A stretch of DNA of 64,000 bases from Alteromonas sp. V450 (lineage in GTDB: Bacteria > Pseudomonadota > Gammaproteobacteria > Enterobacterales > Alteromonadaceae). Positions within the stretch are counted from its first letter, which is position 1. Each line of letters opens with the position of its first letter. The stretch lies in NCBI RefSeq assembly GCF_001885075.1, contig NZ_MODU01000004.1, forward strand, positions 1,240,001-1,304,000, read 5' to 3'. Position numbers and translations under genes: made by a program. A model generated the notes under the pieces. That model ran no database searches, had not been told where the DNA came from, and was given only the letters and a program-made list of their open reading frames with translations. Shown here one piece after another: positions 17,296 through 26,786 of this stretch.

Positions 17296-17931
17296 TTAAT
17301 TAAGCTGTAATTTATCCATTAGCAACACCGCTTGAGTACGCGTGTTAATCTCAAGTTTGCGCAGTATAGCGCTAATATGTGCTTTGATAGTTGCCTCTGT
17401 TACGTTCATCTCGTGAGCAATTTGTTTATTCATTAGCCCAGCGCGAAGGTAAGACAATACTTGAATTTGTTTTGGCGTGAGTTCTCTAAAGCGCTGAAGC
17501 AATACTTTGAGCTCGTCGTCCACTTTCTCAAGCTCTTCTTCCATCCCCTCTGGAAGCCATTTTTTACCGCCAATAATATCGATAATGGCTTGAGCAATTT
17601 CGCGTGTTGCTGATACTTTTGGTATAAAACCACTAGCACCTAAACTCATTACCTGGGCAACAACTTCAACCGTGTCGCTTCCCGATACCACTGCTACAGG
17701 TATATTTGGAAATTGCTCACGAAGGCTTATTAAACCATTAAAGTATTCACCACCTGGCATGTTCAAATCTAGAAGAACCAGTTGAACGCCGTCAAATTCG
17801 TTTAACTTTTCAATCGCTGTATCTAAGCTTCCGGCTTCGATAATTTGTGCATTGTCAAAGTAAGGTTCCAACGCGCCGCTCAATGCTTCGCGAAACAATG
17901 GGTGATCGTCTGCTACTAGAATTCTGGTCAT
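17296..17931 (-). CDS. NarL/LuxR-family response regulator (orphan)
   Basis: 211 residues: a receiver domain with acidic pocket D8-D9, phospho-acceptor D55 (LVLLDLNMPGG) and K105, then a LuxR-type helix-turn-helix (about 148-205, LTPKQIQVLSYL ... EATIKAHISAILRKL). No sensor kinase gene lies next to it. The ADDHPLFREAL start resembles the ErdR/CrbR group that controls acetate and acyl-CoA metabolism in Pseudomonas and Vibrio; the fadE neighbour fits that, but this is inference only. Divergent from cmoA and terminated by its own hairpin. Confidence 0.88.
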   Translation of the reverse strand: MTRILVADDHPLFREALSGALEPYFDNAQIIEAGSLDTAIEKLNEFDGVQLVLLDLNMPGGEYFNGLISLREQFPNIPVAVVSGSDTVEVVAQVMSLGASGFIPKVSATREIAQAIIDIIGGKKWLPEGMEEELEKVDDELKVLLQRFRELTPKQIQVLSYLRAGLMNKQIAHEMNVTEATIKAHISAILRKLEINTRTQAVLLMDKLQLN

Positions 17932-18103
17932 TAGCGTTACTGCTTCCTTATAGTGTTATAGATCATAGATTAATACTTTAGATTAGCAACGAAAAGCCCT
18001 AATCCGCAAAAATGGTACAAATATTTACAAAATCTCGGTTTTTCGTTGGCATTTTCGAATCAAAAGGTAAAATTGCCCCCCATAAGACACTAGGAAAAAT
18101 ACA

Positions 18104-18835
18104 GTGAAAAAACACGACAACATATACGCAAACCCGCTTGAAAAAGTAGCTGACTTTACATTTGATGAGTCTGTGGTCGATGTTTTCCCCGATATGATCC
18201 AGCGTTCTGTTCCGGGATACGAGACCATCATCCACACCATTGGTGAACTCGCTAAATCGTGGGTGTCGGAAGGTTCAAACGTGTATGACTTAGGCTGCAG
18301 CCTAGGTGCCGCAAGTTTATCTGTCGCTCGCGCCACCCAAGACAGAAAGTGCAATATCGTTGGCATAGATAGTTCAGGTGCGATGGTAGAAAGGTGCAAA
18401 CGTGTTGTGCAAGCTTTTACGTTAAATAATCCTATAATTATTGAGCAACGCTTGGCTCAAGACGTAACTATAGATAACGCGTCTATGGTAGTCATGAATT
18501 TTACACTTCAATTCATTCCGCCATCTGATAGAGAAGCACTTTTAAAAACAATATTCGACGGTCTGAACCCGGGTGGCATTTTGGTATTGTCTGAGAAAAT
18601 TCGCCACCCCACTCTCTCAGGTAATGAAATTCTGATTGATCTTCACCATCAGTTTAAACGCGATAACGGCTACAGTGAACTTGAAGTAAGCCAAAAACGT
18701 GCAGCACTAGAAAAAGTGATGCTAACAGATACGTTCAATGAGCATGAACAGAGACTGAAATCGGTGGGCTTCTCAGACGTCGTTATGTGGTATAAGTGCT
18801 ACAACTTCACCTCAATGATTGCCGTAAAACCTTAG
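18104..18835 (+). CDS. cmoA: Carboxy-S-adenosyl-L-methionine synthase
   Basis: A 243-residue Rossmann-fold enzyme that converts SAM and prephenate to carboxy-SAM, the donor for cmo5U34 tRNA modification. Motifs are DNIYANPLEKVADFTFDE at the N-terminus and the SAM loop VYDLGCSLGAAS. It starts at a GTG preceded by TAGGA. cmoB follows after 51 bp; the two act in sequence and are normally adjacent. Confidence 0.96.
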   Translation: MKKHDNIYANPLEKVADFTFDESVVDVFPDMIQRSVPGYETIIHTIGELAKSWVSEGSNVYDLGCSLGAASLSVARATQDRKCNIVGIDSSGAMVERCKRVVQAFTLNNPIIIEQRLAQDVTIDNASMVVMNFTLQFIPPSDREALLKTIFDGLNPGGILVLSEKIRHPTLSGNEILIDLHHQFKRDNGYSELEVSQKRAALEKVMLTDTFNEHEQRLKSVGFSDVVMWYKCYNFTSMIAVKP

Positions 18836-18886
18836 TAAAGCAATGCTATTTCTCACTAGTTTGTAAAATAGCAAAAGAGAAGATTC

Positions 18887-19885
18887 ATGAGTAAACTTGA
18901 AAACACATGGTTTAACGACTGCTACAAATCGTTATTAGAAAGTCCTCTTTCTCATTGGCTACAAACGCTGCCCGCCCAAATGAATGAGTGGCAGGGCAAC
19001 GCAAAGCACGGTGAATTCGACAAATGGTGTCGAATTCTAAGCAAATTACCAACGGTAAAAACGTCCTATAGCGACATTGAAACACGTGTATCAGTCGGAA
19101 GCCATGATGATGTTGATGAATACACCCAAAAGCAAATTGAAGGGTTATTAAAAAATTTTATGCCTTGGAGAAAAGGCCCTTTTCATATTCATGGTGTCCA
19201 CTTAGATACTGAGTGGCGCTCTGACTGGAAATGGGACAGAGTTGCTCCACATATTACGCCCTTAAAAGGACGCACTGTGCTAGATGTAGGTTGCGGCAGT
19301 GGCTATCATATGTGGAGAATGCTGGGAGAACAGGCTTCGCGCGTAGTAGGTATTGACCCAACCCAGTTGTTTTTTATTCAATTTCAAGCCATAAAACACT
19401 TCTTTAACGCTACCGATACGAAAACAGAAAACATTCATTTCTTGCCACTTGGTATTGAACAAATGCAGCCTCTGAAAGCGTTCGACACTGTTTTTTCCAT
19501 GGGTGTGCTCTATCACCGAAAAGATCCAATGGCGTTTCTTACGCAATTAAAAGACCAACTTCGAAAAGGCGGCGAATTGATACTTGAAACCCTGGTGGTA
19601 GATGGTGATGAAAATACAGTGCTTATGGCGGGTGAGCGTTATGCCCAAATGCGTAATGTTTGGTTTTTGCCCAGTACAAGTGCGCTTAAAGTGTGGTTAT
19701 CTCGTCTTGGCTTCGAGGATATTCAGGTCGTAGACGTCAATCATACAACCCTTGATGAACAGCGTGCTACACCGTGGATGGAGACACAGTCTTTGAAAGA
19801 TTTTCTCGACCCGGAAGATATTACTCGTACGATTGAAGGATACCCTGCACCACAAAGAGCCGTTTTAGTTGCGCACAAGCGATAA
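18887..19885 (+). CDS. cmoB: tRNA U34 carboxymethyltransferase
   Basis: 332 residues. It transfers the carboxymethyl group from carboxy-SAM to 5-hydroxyuridine at tRNA position 34, giving uridine 5-oxyacetic acid. Signatures are [24 protein letters not shown], the SAM loop [15 protein letters not shown], and [10 protein letters not shown]. It forms an operon with cmoA. It is separated by about 95 bp from the glycerate kinase start, and that gap holds a large inverted repeat. Confidence 0.96.
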
Positions 19886-19921
19886 TTTGCGCACTCATTC
19901 TACCTCGCTTTTTTGGCATAA

Positions 19922-19981
19922 ATGTTGTTACCTTAATTAAGTTAGCATGTGTAAAAACTGCATTAATTAAGGTGACAACAT
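19922..19981 (+). promoter_or_regulatory. 19-bp inverted repeat covering the RBS and start codon of the glucosylglycerate operon
   Basis: Left arm 19922-19940 (ATGTTGTTACCTTAATTAA) and right arm 19963-19981 (TTAATTAAGGTGACAACAT) are complementary at 18 of 19 positions, and the exception is a G-U pair in RNA. The 22-base spacer is not palindromic. The right arm contains the AAGGTGA ribosome binding site and the first two bases of the ATG at 19980. It could be an operator for a dimeric regulator, or an mRNA hairpin that hides the start site; there is no T run, so it is not a standard terminator. I see the repeat; the role is inferred. Confidence 0.7.
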
Positions 19982-20852
19982 GGACATAGATGGTTTTCTC
20001 GCTACTCAGCAATTACCGAAGGATTATGCAGATACCGCACTAAAATGGTTCACTCCGTTATGTGAACATCTACTGGCGCACCATAATGATGCAAAAAAAC
20101 CATTCATTATTGGCATTAATGGGTGTCAGGGCTCGGGGAAGTCTACTCTGACCAGTTATATTGAGGGGTACTTGACGGCGGTACACAAAAAACGAGTGGT
20201 GTCGCTGTCGATCGACGATTTTTATTATGATAAGTCCCAGCGCCATGCACTGGCGATTAAAGTGCATCCTCTGCTGTCAACACGAGGTGTTCCTGGTACC
20301 CACGACGTTGCGCTTGCGATAAAAACTATACAAGATCTTAGTGATGGAACGTCAACGGCTCTGCCTCGGTTTAATAAAGCGACAGACAATCCATTTCCCC
20401 GCAATCAATGGCCAGTAGTGAATGAAACACCCGACTTCGTGATATTAGAAGGTTGGTGTGTAGGTGTTCCTTGCCAGTCGGCACCTGAACTCAGACAACC
20501 GGTTAACACTCTAGAAGAAACTGAAGATCCCCTTGGAACATGGCGTTCTTTCGTCAATACTGAACTTTCTCGTCAATACCAACAGCTCTTTCAGAAAATT
20601 GACTATCAAGTGATGCTTAGAGCGCCAAGTTTCGATTGCGTGTACCAATGGCGTTTAGAACAAGAACATAAATTGCTGAAAAACGTGAAAGGCAATCAGG
20701 ACGCCATAATGTCAGATGAAGAAGTGGCAAACTTTGTGCAACACTACCAGCGACTTACAGAGCACGCGCTTCGCTGTTTACCTGAGAAGTGCGATACCGT
20801 GTATTACCTTGATGATAAAAGAACCATAACAAAAAAGGACGGTAAACCATGA
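19980..20852 (+). CDS. D-glycerate kinase (plant GLYK/YggC-like P-loop kinase)
   Basis: 290 residues. The P-loop GCQGSGKST follows the IIGING strand, and the downstream LSIDDFYYDKSQR and TRGVPGTHD blocks are typical of the GLYK branch of the phosphoribulokinase/uridine kinase-like fold. Plant GLYK makes 3-phosphoglycerate from D-glycerate. In this operon that would rephosphorylate the glycerate set free by the GH13 phosphorylase and regenerate the acceptor for GpgS. The ribosome binding site and start codon lie in an inverted repeat. The stop overlaps the next start by four bases (ATGA). Confidence 0.85.
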   Translation: MDIDGFLATQQLPKDYADTALKWFTPLCEHLLAHHNDAKKPFIIGINGCQGSGKSTLTSYIEGYLTAVHKKRVVSLSIDDFYYDKSQRHALAIKVHPLLSTRGVPGTHDVALAIKTIQDLSDGTSTALPRFNKATDNPFPRNQWPVVNETPDFVILEGWCVGVPCQSAPELRQPVNTLEETEDPLGTWRSFVNTELSRQYQQLFQKIDYQVMLRAPSFDCVYQWRLEQEHKLLKNVKGNQDAIMSDEEVANFVQHYQRLTEHALRCLPEKCDTVYYLDDKRTITKKDGKP

Positions 20853-21658
20853 CCAAAACGCTTGTTTTCACCGACATGGATGGCACGTTATTAGACCACC
20901 ATACTTACTCTTTCGAGGCGGCGAAACCAGCTTTGGCAGCGTTGAAAAAACACGATATACCTGTCATACCGACTACCAGTAAAACCTTTGCCGAGCTGCA
21001 GCCGCTTCGTGAAAACATAGGACTAGACGGGCCGTTTATTATTGAGAACGGCGCTGCCATTTTTATTCCACATGGTTTTTTTAAGCAAAAACCCAGTGGT
21101 ACTATCTGGATTGATGGGTATTGGTGTAAAGCATTCATCTCTAATAAAAATTATTGGATAAAACTGCTCGAAAAGCTCGGCAGCGAATTCGATGGCAAAT
21201 ATAAACAGTTTTCTAAAATGTCGATAAGCGAAGTTCAAGAAGCCACCGGGCTGGATGAGCATTCAGCAAGCTTAGCGTCGAAGCGACAATTCGGTGAACC
21301 TATCTTGTGGTTGGGCACTGATGAAGAAAAGCTTCGTTTTATCAAAGTGGTTAAAGATAGAGGCGCTTATCCACTGGAAGGTGGACGGTTTATTCATGTT
21401 TCTGGTAACTGTGATAAAGGCCAAGCCCTTAAGTGGCTTGCGAGTGAATATCAAAAGCAGCATACCACCAAAGTTAATACTATCGCCCTTGGCGATGGTA
21501 AAAATGACGTAGCAATGCTTGAAGCAGCGCACGTCCCCATTCGCGTTTTATCACCGGTAAATCCTCCACCAGAAGTACAAAAAGAAGAGGTATATACCAG
21601 CACCCTAACCGGCCCTGAGGGTTGGAATGAAATGTTAACTCAATTGCTTTCCCTATGA
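20849..21658 (+). CDS. HAD phosphatase of the mannosyl/glucosyl-3-phosphoglycerate phosphatase family
   Basis: A 269-residue Cof-type HAD hydrolase. Motif I is FTDMDGTLLD (nucleophile Asp in DxD), motif II lies in the PVIPTTSK strand, and motif IV is ALGDGKNDVAML. The FKQKP ... KLRFIKVVKDRGAYPLEGGRFIHVSG region is that of MPGP/YedP proteins, which dephosphorylate mannosyl- or glucosyl-3-phosphoglycerate. Next to a GpgS, the likely reaction is glucosyl-3-phosphoglycerate to glucosylglycerate. Overlaps the kinase gene by 4 bp; 12 bp to gpgS. Confidence 0.88.
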   Translation: MTKTLVFTDMDGTLLDHHTYSFEAAKPALAALKKHDIPVIPTTSKTFAELQPLRENIGLDGPFIIENGAAIFIPHGFFKQKPSGTIWIDGYWCKAFISNKNYWIKLLEKLGSEFDGKYKQFSKMSISEVQEATGLDEHSASLASKRQFGEPILWLGTDEEKLRFIKVVKDRGAYPLEGGRFIHVSGNCDKGQALKWLASEYQKQHTTKVNTIALGDGKNDVAMLEAAHVPIRVLSPVNPPPEVQKEEVYTSTLTGPEGWNEMLTQLLSL

Positions 21659-21670
21659 TCAGGAGGACAC

Positions 21671-22894
21671 ATGGCTGATTTTTATCAAAATGGTGTGGTT
21701 ACTACGTTACATAATTTGGCTCGTCGTCCTACCGAAGAGCTCGAAGCTGAACTTTTACAATTTTCTCAAAAACGCCCTATGGCACTGATATTGCCGTCGT
21801 TGTTTTCTGAACTTGAAGGCGACGCACTACCTCATATAGTGAACGAGCTAACTGATGTTCCCTATCTTTCAGAAATTGTTATAGGCTTGGACCGCGCAAA
21901 CGAGGCGCAATATAAACACGCACTAAAGTTTTTTGGCAAGCTACCTCAGCACCACAGAATTTTGTGGAACGACGGCCCACGGCTTAAAGCTCTCGATGAA
22001 GAGCTTCAAGCACAAGGGCTGGCACCTAAAGAGTTAGGAAAGGGACGTAATGTATGGTATTGCATGGGCTATGTGCTTGCATCTAACCGTGCAGAATCTG
22101 TAGCGCTGCATGACTGCGATATCGTGACGTATGAGAAGGATCTTCTGGCGAAGCTCATTTACCCTGTTGCCAACCCCATGTTTAACTATGAATTCTGTAA
22201 AGGTTACTATGCGCGTGTCGCAAATGGAAAAATCAACGGGCGCGTTTCACGGTTACTTGTTACACCGTTACTTCGCGCGCTAAAGCGCATTATGGGTGAC
22301 AATGAGTACCTAGAATTTATGGACAGCTTCCGCTATCCGTTAGCAGGTGAATTTTCCTTCAGACGTGATGTACTGAATGATATACGTATACCCAGCGACT
22401 GGGGTCTAGAAATTGGCGTATTGTCAGAAATGCATCGAAATTATTCACACAACCGTCTGTGCCAAGCTGACATCTGTGATATTTACGACCATAAACATCA
22501 AGATTTATCGTTGAATAACGACCAAGGTGGCCTGTCGAAAATGTCAATCGACATTACGAAAGCAATCTTCAGAAAGCTAGCTACCCAAGGCTACACATTC
22601 AGCAACGAAATGTTCCGCTCAATTAAGGCCACTTATTTCCGCATAGCACTAGACTTTATTGAAACCTATCACAACGATGCGGTCATGAATGGCTTAAACT
22701 TAGACATTCACAGCGAGGAAAAAGCGGTAGAGATGTTTGCGAGCAATATCATGAAAGCGGGACAAAACTTCTTGGAAAATCCCATGGAAACACCGTTTAT
22801 CCCTAGCTGGAACCGAGTAACCAGTGCTGTACCTGACATTTTGGAGCGACTCTTAGAAGCCGTTGAAGCCGATACCGCAGAATATATGGAGTAA
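21671..22894 (+). CDS. gpgS: Glucosyl-3-phosphoglycerate synthase (GT81)
   Basis: A 407-residue GT-A glycosyltransferase. It aligns by eye with mycobacterial Gpg[15 protein letters not shown], the metal-binding DxD in [47 protein letters not shown], and [12 protein letters not shown] are in the same order. GpgS transfers glucose from NDP-glucose to 3-phosphoglycerate. AGGAGG lies just upstream of the ATG, and five bases separate its stop from the phosphorylase gene. The C-terminal 90 residues are longer than in the mycobacterial enzyme. Confidence 0.88.
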
Positions 22895-22899
22895 GTAAT

Positions 22900-24654
22900 A
22901 TGGCATGGGACCATCTCCATGACAAAGTGAAACACCATTTAGAAAGTATTTACGCAGATGTAGCGCTAGACGTCTCCTTTGAGACGCTAGCGACTGATTT
23001 GATGAATACAATAGGTATTCAGCAGCAAACAGACATTGCTTCACCTCAGTCTCATTACAATTATTGGAATGAAGAAGACATCATCATGATTACCTACGGT
23101 GATAGTGTTATTGATGAAGGTGAACGCCCTTTGGTCACGTTGAACAAGTTCTTGCACCGCTATTGCAAAAACACCATTAACAACGTGCATATTCTACCCT
23201 TCTTTCCCTACAGCTCTGATGATGGGTTTTCGGTTATCGATTACTCAACCGTGAATGAAGCATTAGGTTCATGGGACGATATCGAGGTTATCGCTGAAGA
23301 CTATGGTTTAATGACCGATTTGGTAATAAATCACTGCTCTGCAAGAAGCGTGTGGTTTGACAATTTTGTGAAAGGTGAAGGTCCAGGTTCTGACTTTTTC
23401 TTTACGGCAGATCCTACCGACGATCTTTCTATGGTAACCCGCCCTCGTGTATCTCCATTACTGCGTGAGACGGAAACCGCCAACGGCACCAAGCATGTAT
23501 GGTGCACCTTCAGCCACGATCAGGTCGATTTTGACTTTAGAAATCCAAAGGTGTTGTTAGCGTTTATCGATATCATCAAGCTGTATATTGACAAGGGCGC
23601 TAAACTCTTCCGTTTGGACGCCGTGGCTTTTCTTTGGAAAATTGTTGGCACAAGCTGTATTAATTTGTCCCAAACCCATGAAGTCATACGTCTGATCAGA
23701 ACGCTCATTGAACATGTGGATCCGTCAATCATAATCATTACCGAAACTAATATTCCAAACAGGGAGAACCTAACGTACTTTGGTAATGCTAACGAGGCCC
23801 ATGCTATTTATAACTTTTCGCTTCCGCCGTTACTCGTAAATACTCTTGTAACGGGTGATTGTACCTATTTAAAAAGTTGGATGATGAGCATGCCACCAGC
23901 ACAAAATGGCACAGCCTATTTCAACTTCATCGCCTCGCATGACGGCATTGGCTTGCGCCCGGCGGAAGGTCTGCTTAGCGATGAAGAAATTTCAGAGCTA
24001 GTGCATACAATGCAGCATTTCGGTGGCAAGGTGTCGTGGCGGGCTTCCGATCACGGACAGCAAAAACCCTATGAGATAAACATCACCTTATTCGATGCTC
24101 TGCAAGGAACCATAAAGGGGCCAGATAAGTACCAGGTTGACCGTTTTATTTGCGCTCATGCCATAATGCTAGGTATGGAAGGTATTCCAGGTATTTACAT
24201 TCACAGTTTGCTTGGTACGTCGAACGACTATGAGAAGGTGGCAAACACGGGGCAAAATCGTTCAATAAATAGAAAGCGATGGGACTTTAACGAACTAGAG
24301 GCTTTATTAGACTCACCGTTCTCACAGCATCATAAAGTACTCACTCGAATCTCGCAGCTTATACGCATACGTAAAGCGCAGCCTGCGTTTCACCCCAACG
24401 CTACACAATTTACGTTGCAGCTTGGTAATCAAATATTTGGATACTGGCGTCAAAGCTTAGATAGAAAACAAAGTATCTTCTGTATCAGTAATATTTCAGA
24501 CGAAGAACAAACTATTTTGTTGTCTGATATCAACCTTATCGGTACAGATAACTGGATCGATCTCATTACCCGAGATGAGATAGCTCTTTCTAGTGGTTTC
24601 TTACAAATGAAACCTTATCAAGTTCTTTGGATAAGCAACCAGGATTTTGAGTAA
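22900..24654 (+). CDS. GH13 (sucrose phosphorylase-like) glycoside phosphorylase, probable glucosylglycerate phosphorylase
   Basis: A 584-residue alpha-amylase-family enzyme of the sucrose phosphorylase group. The nucleophile is D240 in LFRLDAVAF, the acid/base E282 in IITETN, and the transition-state Asp lies in SHDGIGLRP. The [13 protein letters not shown] start and the length fit the branch containing E. coli YcjM, characterised as a glucosylglycerate phosphorylase. Expected reaction: glucosylglycerate plus phosphate gives glucose-1-phosphate and D-glycerate. Its place after GpgS and the phosphatase, with a glycerate kinase at the head of the operon, favours this over sucrose as substrate. 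Confidence 0.85.
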
Positions 24655-24748
24655 ATACTTGAGATTAAACACTTCGATGACAAAAATATACCGCGGTAAG
24701 GACACTGTGGTGTTATCCTTCGGCAATAAATAGTTAAACACATTTACA

Positions 24749-25420
24749 ATGCAAGAGATTAATACCTTCTTTTTCGACTTGGACGGAACCCTTGTCGACT
24801 CTGTGCCCGATCTGGCGACCGCCTTAAATCAGATGCTAAGCCATTATCAACTACCGACTTATGACGAACAGACAATTAGACACTGGGTGGGAAATGGCGC
24901 CCGTGTTTTAGTAGAGCGTGGGTTGAGCGGCAGCGCAGAAGCAACCCACAAGTACACGTCGAACGAAGTTGATGCCGCACTAGAAATGTTCCTTCACTTC
25001 TACCGAACGTTAGAAATAAAACGCACCGCACTGTACGACAGTGTCTTCGACACGTTACATGCGCTTAAACATCGTGGTTCTACGCTAGCATTGATCACTA
25101 ATAAACCTGCAGAGTTTATTGCGCCTATTTTGTCTACATTTTCACTGTCTCCACTGTTTTCGCTAACCATAGGCGGAGATAGTTTACCGGAGAAAAAGCC
25201 GTCGGCCCTGCCCCTTCTTTATGCCTGCCAACAATTTAGGGCCGCGCCTTCACAGTGTGTAATGGTAGGTGATTCTAAGAACGATATTCTTGCCGCTAAA
25301 GCCGCCAAAATTAAAAGTATCGGACTCACCTATGGATATAATTACGGTGAGTGCATTTCGACCTATCAGCCTGACTGGGTATTAGAACGTTTTGGTGAAA
25401 TACTAACCTTGAATTTGTAA
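24749..25420 (+). CDS. gph: Phosphoglycolate phosphatase-like HAD hydrolase
   Basis: A 223-residue HAD-IA protein. Motif I is FFDLDGTLVDS (D10, D12), the cap helix carries WVGNGARVLVERGL, typical of Gph, motif II/III is LALITNKP ... LPEKKPSALPL, and motif IV is MVGDSKNDILAAKAA. Gph removes 2-phosphoglycolate. It follows the phosphorylase gene after 94 bp on the same strand; that gap has an imperfect hairpin (AAGGACAC ... GTGTTATCCTT) but no T tail, so read-through from the glucosylglycerate operon is possible. The ribosome binding site is weak. Confidence 0.85.
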   Translation: MQEINTFFFDLDGTLVDSVPDLATALNQMLSHYQLPTYDEQTIRHWVGNGARVLVERGLSGSAEATHKYTSNEVDAALEMFLHFYRTLEIKRTALYDSVFDTLHALKHRGSTLALITNKPAEFIAPILSTFSLSPLFSLTIGGDSLPEKKPSALPLLYACQQFRAAPSQCVMVGDSKNDILAAKAAKIKSIGLTYGYNYGECISTYQPDWVLERFGEILTLNL

Positions 25421-25571
25421 TTTCGTTTTAATGATAACGTTACGCCATTACACCGCAGCACTTGCGATACTCATCGCGCCTTCTTTCTTTTAATTCACGC
25501 TTTAACCTTTGGTATAACAACGCTTTTTTCTGTAATATTCGTGCGTTGAATTATTTTTAGGAGTTGTTGGT

Positions 25572-26786
25572 ATGTCATCAAAATGGCTTTCACTCGAAGA
25601 GGCCCTCACCAAAGCGTTAAACGCCGCACAAGCGATAACCGAAATCGAACAAGTGAGTATTTTTGACGCCAACAACCGCATCTTGGCGGAAGACGTTATC
25701 GCCCATGTTGACGTGCCGCCATGGGATAATTCAGCCATGGACGGCTACGCTGTTAACGTAGAAGACCTTGCACTTAGCGCTGAACTCGACGTACAGGGCG
25801 TTATTACCGCAGGCATGAGTGCTGATGTGCCGCTTGAAAAAGGCAAGGCATTTAAAATTATGACCGGCGCACCAATACCACTTAACGCCAATGCAGTTGT
25901 GATGGTAGAAAATACTGAAAACCGCGACAGCGCAGTCGTCATAAAAAAACGTCCTTCAGCTAACGAGAATATTCGCAAAAAAGCCAATGATATTGCCTGT
26001 GGCGACACGCTAATTAGTAAAGGCACGTGCCTTCACGCTGAACACCTTATGCTGCTCTCCTCACAGGGAAAGAGCACCGTAGCAGTTTACCGAAAGCTAC
26101 GCGTTGGTGTGGTAGCAACCGGTTCTGAACTCGCTGCCCCTGGTGATACTCTAAAATCAACACAAATTTTCGAGTCGAACCGCGTTGGTGTAAGTAGCAT
26201 CTTAGGCAACGAAAACGTAGAGCTTGTTGATTTTGGCATTGTAGAAGACGACGAAACCTCTCTGCGTAAGCTATTTAATGAGGCCAGCGAGCGTGTAGAC
26301 GTGATGGTAAGTAGCGGCGGCGTTTCAGTTGGTGACGCTGATTACGTAAAAGATATTATCGCTGAATTAGGCGCTATCGATTTTTGGAAAGTTGCGGTTA
26401 AACCGGGTAAACCTTTTGCTTTAGGCAAAATCAATAACACCCTGTTTTGTGGTTTACCGGGCAACCCCGTGTCGTCTTTTGTTACCGCCAAGTTACTGGT
26501 TGTGCCCGTTATTAAAAAAATGCAAGGCCAAGTTCAAAGCCATGAGCCTTTCTTCGTTAACGCTACAATTACCACGCCGCTTAAATGTCGTGCGGGCCGA
26601 CGGGATTTCCAGCGTGCAACTATGGTAAGAAACGGCCAAGGCGAATGGGAAGTTACCCCGTTTAAATCTCAAAGCTCTGGTGTTATGACGTCAATCACCT
26701 CTGCCAACTGCCTTATGGTAGTGCATGAGGATATAAGTGAGTTAAACGTTGGCGACAAGGTTCCCGTTATGCCGCTTCATTTTTAG
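25572..26786 (+). CDS. moeA: Molybdopterin molybdenumtransferase MoeA
   Basis: A 404-residue protein of standard MoeA length and domain order. Motifs are DVPPWDNSAMDGYAV, IMTGAPIPLNANAVVMVE, the MoaB/Mog-like domain with SSGGVSVGDADYVKD, and FCGLPGNPVSSFV. MoeA inserts molybdate into adenylylated molybdopterin. A TTAGGAG motif precedes the ATG. No other molybdenum cofactor biosynthesis gene is adjacent, but a MocA-like transferase lies 1.6 kb downstream on the other strand. Confidence 0.96.
   Translation: MSSKWLSLEEALTKALNAAQAITEIEQVSIFDANNRILAEDVIAHVDVPPWDNSAMDGYAVNVEDLALSAELDVQGVITAGMSADVPLEKGKAFKIMTGAPIPLNANAVVMVENTENRDSAVVIKKRPSANENIRKKANDIACGDTLISKGTCLHAEHLMLLSSQGKSTVAVYRKLRVGVVATGSELAAPGDTLKSTQIFESNRVGVSSILGNENVELVDFGIVEDDETSLRKLFNEASERVDVMVSSGGVSVGDADYVKDIIAELGAIDFWKVAVKPGKPFALGKINNTLFCGLPGNPVSSFVTAKLLVVPVIKKMQGQVQSHEPFFVNATITTPLKCRAGRRDFQRATMVRNGQGEWEVTPFKSQSSGVMTSITSANCLMVVHEDISELNVGDKVPVMPLHF

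Follow-up and report, generated by a model that had tools for sequence, protein, structure and literature searches.

What would a bacterium gain from four adjacent genes that appear to build a small sugar derivative and take it apart again, and what would switch them on? The question is raised by a stretch of 64,000 nucleotides from Alteromonas sp. V450, a marine heterotroph (contig NZ_MODU01000004.1, positions 1,240,001 to 1,304,000; here called the window). Four open reading frames (ORFs) on the plus strand, spanning 19980-24654 of the window, resemble genes for the metabolism of glucosylglycerate (GGA). They very probably form a one-operon system that both makes and recycles this compound, and a sigma-54 promoter just 5' of the first gene probably drives their transcription.

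The first gene (19980-20852, 290 amino acids) is assigned to the GLYK-family D-glycerate 3-kinases. It is followed by a HAD-IIB phosphatase, the probable glucosyl-3-phosphoglycerate phosphatase (GpgP; 20849-21658, 269 amino acids), a GpgS-like glucosyl-3-phosphoglycerate synthase (21671-22894, 407 amino acids) and a GH13_18-type glucosylglycerate phosphorylase (GGaP; 22900-24654, 584 amino acids). The original prediction described the four genes as tightly packed, and the ORF coordinates confirm an overlap of 4 bp and gaps of 12 and 5 bp.

In the proposed pathway, GpgS would transfer glucose from a nucleotide sugar onto 3-phosphoglycerate. Removal of the phosphate by the HAD phosphatase would then give GGA, a compatible solute that contains no nitrogen. 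Once the cell has no further need of GGA, GGaP would cleave it with phosphate; of the two products, glucose-1-phosphate and D-glycerate, the latter would be turned into 3-phosphoglycerate by the GLYK kinase. The original prediction called this loop self-contained. A loop of synthesis and recycling agrees with the family matches and the conserved gene order given below; "self-contained" is slightly too strong, as a nucleotide-sugar pyrophosphorylase is also needed.

Identity of the Enzymes

The phosphorylase can be told apart from its relatives by two marks. According to excerpts of a 2020 review (PMC7178133), the tip of strand beta-5 bears (T/S)ETN in GGaPs (EC 2.4.1.352), whose loop A has Glu where Gln would otherwise stand, and strict GGaP activity is expected for proteins with both. 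The GH13 protein has TETN at residues 281-284, in the same column as E. coli YcjM, and all 88 aligned homologues share it. Its loop A reads KP--YEIN, with Glu at the column that holds the Gln of NVDLYQ in the sucrose phosphorylase of the same genome; 86 of the 88 homologues have Glu there and two have gaps. YcjM is 40% identical and bears both marks. The protein thus appears to be of the GGaP type.

The best PDB matches of the GH13 protein are chains named glucosylglycerol phosphorylase and sucrose phosphorylase, and its best NCBIfam model is TIGR03852. These names would fit an enzyme that phosphorolyses sucrose or glucosylglycerol and adjoins the GGA genes without being part of their pathway. 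Such an identity is highly improbable, given the marks for which strict GGaP activity is the expectation in the review excerpts (PMC7178133) and a TIGR03852 score of 208 bits against a cut-off of 334. Sucrose phosphorylases were defined by a score above that cut-off together with a loop A of the form N(L/V)D(I/L/V)YQ, and the GH13 protein has neither. A separate sucrose phosphorylase in the genome (L002; G000:C4:1562921-1564396) has both, with 426 bits and the motif NVDLYQ; its best PDB match is 7znp (E 6e-271). Because TETN and the loop A Glu occur as in YcjM, and because this paralogue exists, action on sucrose alone, which would contradict the predicted phosphorolysis of GGA, is unlikely. 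The assignment as a sucrose phosphorylase was rejected on the motifs and the paralogue.

The kinase has as its best solved relatives, by phmmer, the D-glycerate 3-kinase chains 6ckg (E 7e-20) and 7xpc (E 1e-18). Its P-loop, GCQGSGKST, aligns with the solved GLYK chains, and homology and P-loop together place it in this family. In Pfam only the broad PRK family scores above cut-off. Assignment as a pantothenate or uridine kinase was rejected: the NCBIfam models for these are far under their cut-offs, and solved GLYK chains outscore solved pantothenate and uridine kinases. The kinase is the sole GLYK match in the genome, in which no GarK-type (PF02595) or MOFRL-type (PF05161) glycerate kinase was matched. 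PDB entries of this family bear the name D-glycerate 3-kinase. The product should accordingly be 3-phosphoglycerate, and the predicted return of glycerate to this compound finds support at the level of sequence.

The phosphatase scores above cut-off with two models, NF001218 (mannosyl-3-phosphoglycerate phosphatase, MPGP; 417 bits, cut-off 362) and TIGR01486 (223 bits, cut-off 165), and matches the MPGP chains 1xvi, 1wzc and 3ztw. It is probably a GpgP, which would act on a glucosyl rather than a mannosyl substrate.

The transferase aligns over the full length of NF040724 (GpgS_Meth) with 379 bits. This falls below the curated cut-off of 700, and the score with NF010496 is 65 bits against a cut-off of 262. 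Both shortfalls count against a firm GpgS assignment, and because of them the protein is filed as GpgS-like; the families originally proposed for the other three genes held without this reservation. Its family profile (A1) matches solved GpgS chains, among them 7pdo and 7p5l, with a best E of 6e-8. In the stretch H147-D148-C149-D150, both D148 and D150 are invariant among 13 aligned sequences; we take this DxD motif to be the metal site.

Conservation of the Gene Set

Evidence that the four genes belong together can be sought in related genomes. From 585 confirmed stretches the best 80 were chosen by GpgS similarity; this set of named loci therefore leans to near relatives. The order kinase-phosphatase-GpgS-GGaP, for which the original prediction had suggested a search, is present in 54 of these 80. 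The genes are separate in 46 loci, and in 8 the kinase and phosphatase share one stop-to-stop frame. Because it recurs in this way, the arrangement is not due to chance. The remaining 26 loci keep the order GpgP-GpgS-GGaP with no adjacent kinase.

A glycerate kinase from one of three families is found elsewhere in 24 of the 25 searchable genomes of these 26 loci. In 15 of the 25 the enzyme is a GLYK (E <1e-60); among the remaining 10, a GarK-type kinase is present in 7 and a MOFRL-type kinase in 2 further genomes. GLYK matches with E between 1e-5 and 3e-4, of which there were five, were judged too weak to count. One metagenome-assembled genome matched none of the three families.

A broader view is given by a class sample of 274 genomes, in which GLYK (E <1e-50) was counted in 30, GpgS (E <1e-90) in 38 and GGaP (E <=1e-100) in 40. 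These counts leave out 17 genomes in which GLYK matched only weakly, as well as three weak matches to GpgS. GGaP and GpgS coincide in 36 genomes (Fisher p 4e-38), and in 30 of these they are neighbours, no more than 1.5 kb from each other. GLYK also occurs together with GpgS (p 2e-5), and in all 13 genomes with both the distance between the two is about 1 kb at most, by coordinates read by eye (in G097 across a contig end). A link that is special to the kinase is opposed by the 17 of 30 GLYK genomes that have no GpgS; the kinase is therefore not specific to the GGA pathway.

Fusion of the kinase with the phosphatase has occurred more than once. In Pseudoalteromonas the two are annotated as a single 580-amino-acid product. 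On the well-supported branches of a tree of 82 kinases, which does not include two more fused frames (L132 and L137), the fused forms require at least 3 changes. Kinases of GpgS-less genomes require at least 5 changes, and the groups interleave. The repeated fusion supports a joint function of kinase and phosphatase.

A joint function could take another form. The 3-hydroxyl of GGA is free, and the kinase might phosphorylate GGA itself. Together with the phosphatase it would then form an antagonistic pair, which would balance GGA against GGA-phosphate and have no part in glycerate salvage. The 4-bp overlap of the two genes here, the shared frame in 8 of the 80 named loci and the changes that the fused forms require on the tree are all in keeping with such a pair. 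This is very unlikely, because kinases from the 17 GpgS-less genomes interleave with the cluster and fused kinases, which supports plain glycerate as the substrate. The two best class-sample matches beyond the window's own genome (G212 and G253; 50% identity) come from genomes that gave no GpgS match and probably do not make GGA. Glycerate, in turn, is both the expected product of GGaP and the standard substrate of GLYK. Salvage of glycerate is thus the preferred role of the kinase.

Several further observations concern these genes in other genomes. Within the genus, conservation is uneven: compared with L050, identity is 99% for GpgS, 95% for GGaP, 90% for the phosphatase and 70% for the kinase, with CmoA and CmoB, encoded upstream of the cluster, at 80-81%. 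Across L050-L059, GpgS seems unusually constrained and the kinase unusually fast. In two GpgS-less genomes GLYK lies at one end of a long frame (L175:3138-5720 in G071, 861 amino acids; L183:4986-6656 in G224, 557 amino acids), and the 861-amino-acid frame has no Pfam match. Two other GpgS-less genomes have a nucleotidyltransferase gene (PF00483) immediately 3' of their GLYK gene (L173:4866-5708 and L174:4881-5735). Beyond these two genes no common theme was seen among the neighbours of GLYK in GpgS-less genomes (10 proteins scanned, including the kinase-bearing frame of L175). On two alphaproteobacterial plasmids, from Qingshengfaniella (L045) and Leisingera (L046, typed as conjugative), the phosphorylase gene is oriented against gpgP-gpgS; the stretches fetched from these plasmids gave no GLYK match.

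A Probable Sigma-54-Type Promoter

Transcription of the cluster probably starts at a sigma-54 promoter. The element TTGGCAT-N5-TTGTT lies at 19913-19929 on the plus strand, 5' of the kinase; the E. coli sigma-54 consensus is TGGCACnnTTnTTGC, as given in excerpts of PMC8743547. If it is such a promoter, expression would depend on an activator protein.

Conservation was followed in a genus set of 36 genomes, the window's included. The genus as grouped is wide and takes in one corresponding to Salinimonas (G030, L057). All 35 genomes that have the kinase also have the promoter-like element, with TGGCA starting 63-67 bp before the kinase start and the inner spacing kept exactly in 35 of 35. The -24 half is TGGCAC in 22 and TGGCAT in 13. 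The search required TGGCA[CT]-N5-TTG (for the column count, TTGGCA[CT]-N5-TTG), and these columns are fixed by construction. No kinase-bearing genome failed the search, and columns that it did not require are fixed as well (A in 35/35, G in 35/35, T in 34/35). The 43 columns upstream of the site average 0.20 bits over the 35 sequences.

The site also occurs beyond the genus. Within 350 nt of the first gene it was found in 31 of 78 named loci (two of the 80 were too short for this count), where 0.006-0.009 per locus are expected. It precedes 28 of 52 kinase-first loci and 3 of 26 phosphatase-first loci, and 22 of the 31 sites lie within 100 bp of the first gene.

In the window's genome the wider pattern TTGGCAY-N5-TTGHW matched 19 times and its reversed form 8 times. 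Among the genes classically controlled by sigma-54 are the flagellar and psp genes. One match precedes a FlgF-type flagellar rod gene, itself located after a FlgE-type gene, and another, with the -12 box TTGAA, precedes a pspA-type gene; pspA is among the E. coli RpoN targets listed in excerpts of PMC8743547. Elsewhere in the genome (L240:835-2893; G000:C4 near 3082941) a sigma-54 activator gene is divergent from a gene for a Tll0287-like protein, and TTGGCAT-N5-TTGTT precedes the latter.

Several observations speak against a promoter of this kind. The -12 box is TTGT and not the usual TTGC, the C being replaced by T in 34 and by A in 1 of the 35 sequences. The 36th genome of the genus set (G025), which has no kinase, also has no site. 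Of the 31 sites in named loci, 9 are 143-235 bp upstream of the first gene, and 47 of the 78 loci have no site within 350 nt, among them those of Shewanella, Amphritea, Methylophaga and Halieaceae. Nine of the 19 places that fit the wider pattern fall within ORFs of at least 166 amino acids, so these are probably chance matches. No NtrC box was credited in 19301-19930, where two weak partial matches have 2 mismatches each.

The -24/-12-like site might instead belong to the binding site of a different regulator, or to a hairpin formed by the inverted repeat described below, which overlaps the -12 box; the missing -12 C would then be accounted for. Such a reading is unlikely in view of the exact spacing, of a -24 half that lies outside the repeat and is kept in 35 of 35 genomes, and of the fixation of columns that the search did not require, with no kinase-bearing genome failing it. 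The same genome moreover has elements of this kind before the pspA-type gene (TTGAA) and before the activator-divergent gene (TTGTT). Provided that these elements are genuine, this genome tolerates a -12 box without the C. A sigma-54 promoter is therefore preferred.

By motif scan, no sigma-54 activator gene was seen in the window, and one was found near the cluster in 1 of the 80 named loci (L088, whose cluster has no site), many of which end at contig ends.

In the open-licence PubMed Central literature, outside which the study of Franceus, Pinel and Desmet (2017) falls, no account of this promoter or of the repeated kinase-phosphatase fusion was found among the matches listed. Among those listed for glucosylglycerate with sigma-54 terms none names glucosylglycerate, and those for glucosylglycerate with rpoN concern other subjects, as judged from titles and the beginnings of abstracts.

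An Inverted Repeat in the Leader

The promoter-like element is joined to the kinase by an inverted repeat, which runs from the -12 box to the kinase start codon. Its arms of 19 nt (19922-19940 and 19963-19981, plus strand) are 95% complementary, and the fold of the leader has a z-score of -4.1. The 5' arm shares bases with the -12 box and reaches as far as the predicted transcription start. In the 3' arm lie the A and T of the kinase start codon ATG, together with what is probably its ribosome-binding site.

Paired changes are seen among near relatives. In 35 leaders (34 distinct), 77.0% of the cells pair, versus 70.6% in shuffles and 24-49% when the arms are slid, and 38 cells are changed on both sides versus 18.2 in shuffles. 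Against the hairpin, 7 of 16 pairs have a double change, which is not above the shuffles (mean 7.0), and kinship inflates such counts. Some branches pair poorly: L190, L204, L211, L222 and L202 keep 6-7 of the 16 pairs. RNAalifold gave no consensus structure for all 35 leaders, and the hairpin is therefore claimed for near relatives only.

The usual spacing from the -12 box to +1 places a sigma-54 start at about 19939-19941, just past the 5' arm. With the start there, the hairpin may act on read-through transcripts from cmoA and cmoB, which lie upstream of the cluster. Such transcripts would carry both arms, and the hairpin would hide the ribosome-binding site and start codon of the kinase. 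Transcripts from the sigma-54 promoter would begin just past the 5' arm and would be translated freely. It can be suggested only tentatively that, in Alteromonas and its kin, sigma-54 controls GGA metabolism and the leader itself guards against read-through. If it is true, the make-and-recycle loop would be on only in the presence of the activator's signal, which could be nitrogen or another stress.

Physiological Role

The loop may buffer the cell against salt or nitrogen stress, as was originally proposed. The sigma-54-type site is a concrete reason to consider nitrogen supply, and its conservation offers a direct genetic handle on which stress turns GGA on. A search for ectoine synthase found no match in the window's genome and likewise none in the control genomes, and hence is uninformative.

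Alternatively, the operon could serve mainly as a store of carbon and phosphate, or for the use of external GGA, with no response to salt or nitrogen. GGaP and the kinase alone would be enough to use GGA as food, and Prochlorococcus may import external GGA (excerpts of PMC11631117). Yet synthesis goes with the phosphorylase, GpgS being present in 36 of 40 GGaP genomes, and there is no transporter among the four genes (the neighbouring genes were not searched for transporters). A role mainly in storage or uptake is rather unlikely.

Relation to Known Systems

The pathway itself is of a known kind, and gene clusters of this type are already known. The pathway is thus ordinary, and the regulation is mildly interesting. 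To our knowledge cyanobacteria have no sigma-54, and sigma-54 regulation would not apply in Prochlorococcus. The Prochlorococcus operon, named for GGA metabolism, is similar in its combination of synthesis with recycling to glucose-1-phosphate and 3-phosphoglycerate; a linked putative transporter gene is a feature of its own (excerpts of PMC11631117). The same excerpts propose Alteromonas as a possible source of GGA for Prochlorococcus.

GGaPs are often accompanied by genes for glycerate kinase, GpgS or GpgP, according to excerpts of the 2020 review (PMC7178133, citing Franceus, Pinel and Desmet 2017). The present cluster resembles these in the company of its GGaP, and differs from their description there on several points: all four genes are closely packed in a single order, the kinase is of the GLYK type, relatives have kinase-phosphatase fusions, and a site of the sigma-54 type is present. 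As of 2020, the exact metabolic function of GGaP lacked experimental confirmation (PMC7178133, same excerpts).

In Marinobacter, homologues of GpgS, GpgP and GGaP occur together in 198 of 250 isolates (excerpts of PMC10873239). The three homologues are a likeness to the present set; a difference is that the word "kinase" is absent from the main text of that paper. E. coli YcjM (L159), named glucosylglycerate phosphorylase in RefSeq, has the GGaP marks in common with the protein of the window. Its neighbourhood (18 kb) holds ATP-binding cassette transporter and sugar dehydrogenase genes, and none there is annotated as GpgS or GpgP.

Neighbouring Genes

A scan for sigma-70 promoters in 17900-25600 gave 14 sites versus 15.6 in shuffles, that is, no excess. 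Terminator-like sites in the same region number 11, versus 6.9 in shuffles (standard deviation 2.7). Downstream of the cluster, a phosphoglycolate phosphatase gene (24749-25420) follows on the same strand after 94 bp, and a match to it follows in 4 of the 80 named loci. Upstream, cmoB (18104-19885) is the next matched gene 5' of the kinase in 18 of the 80 loci, all of them from Alteromonadaceae, with gaps of 8 to 4810 bp between the stop-to-stop frames.

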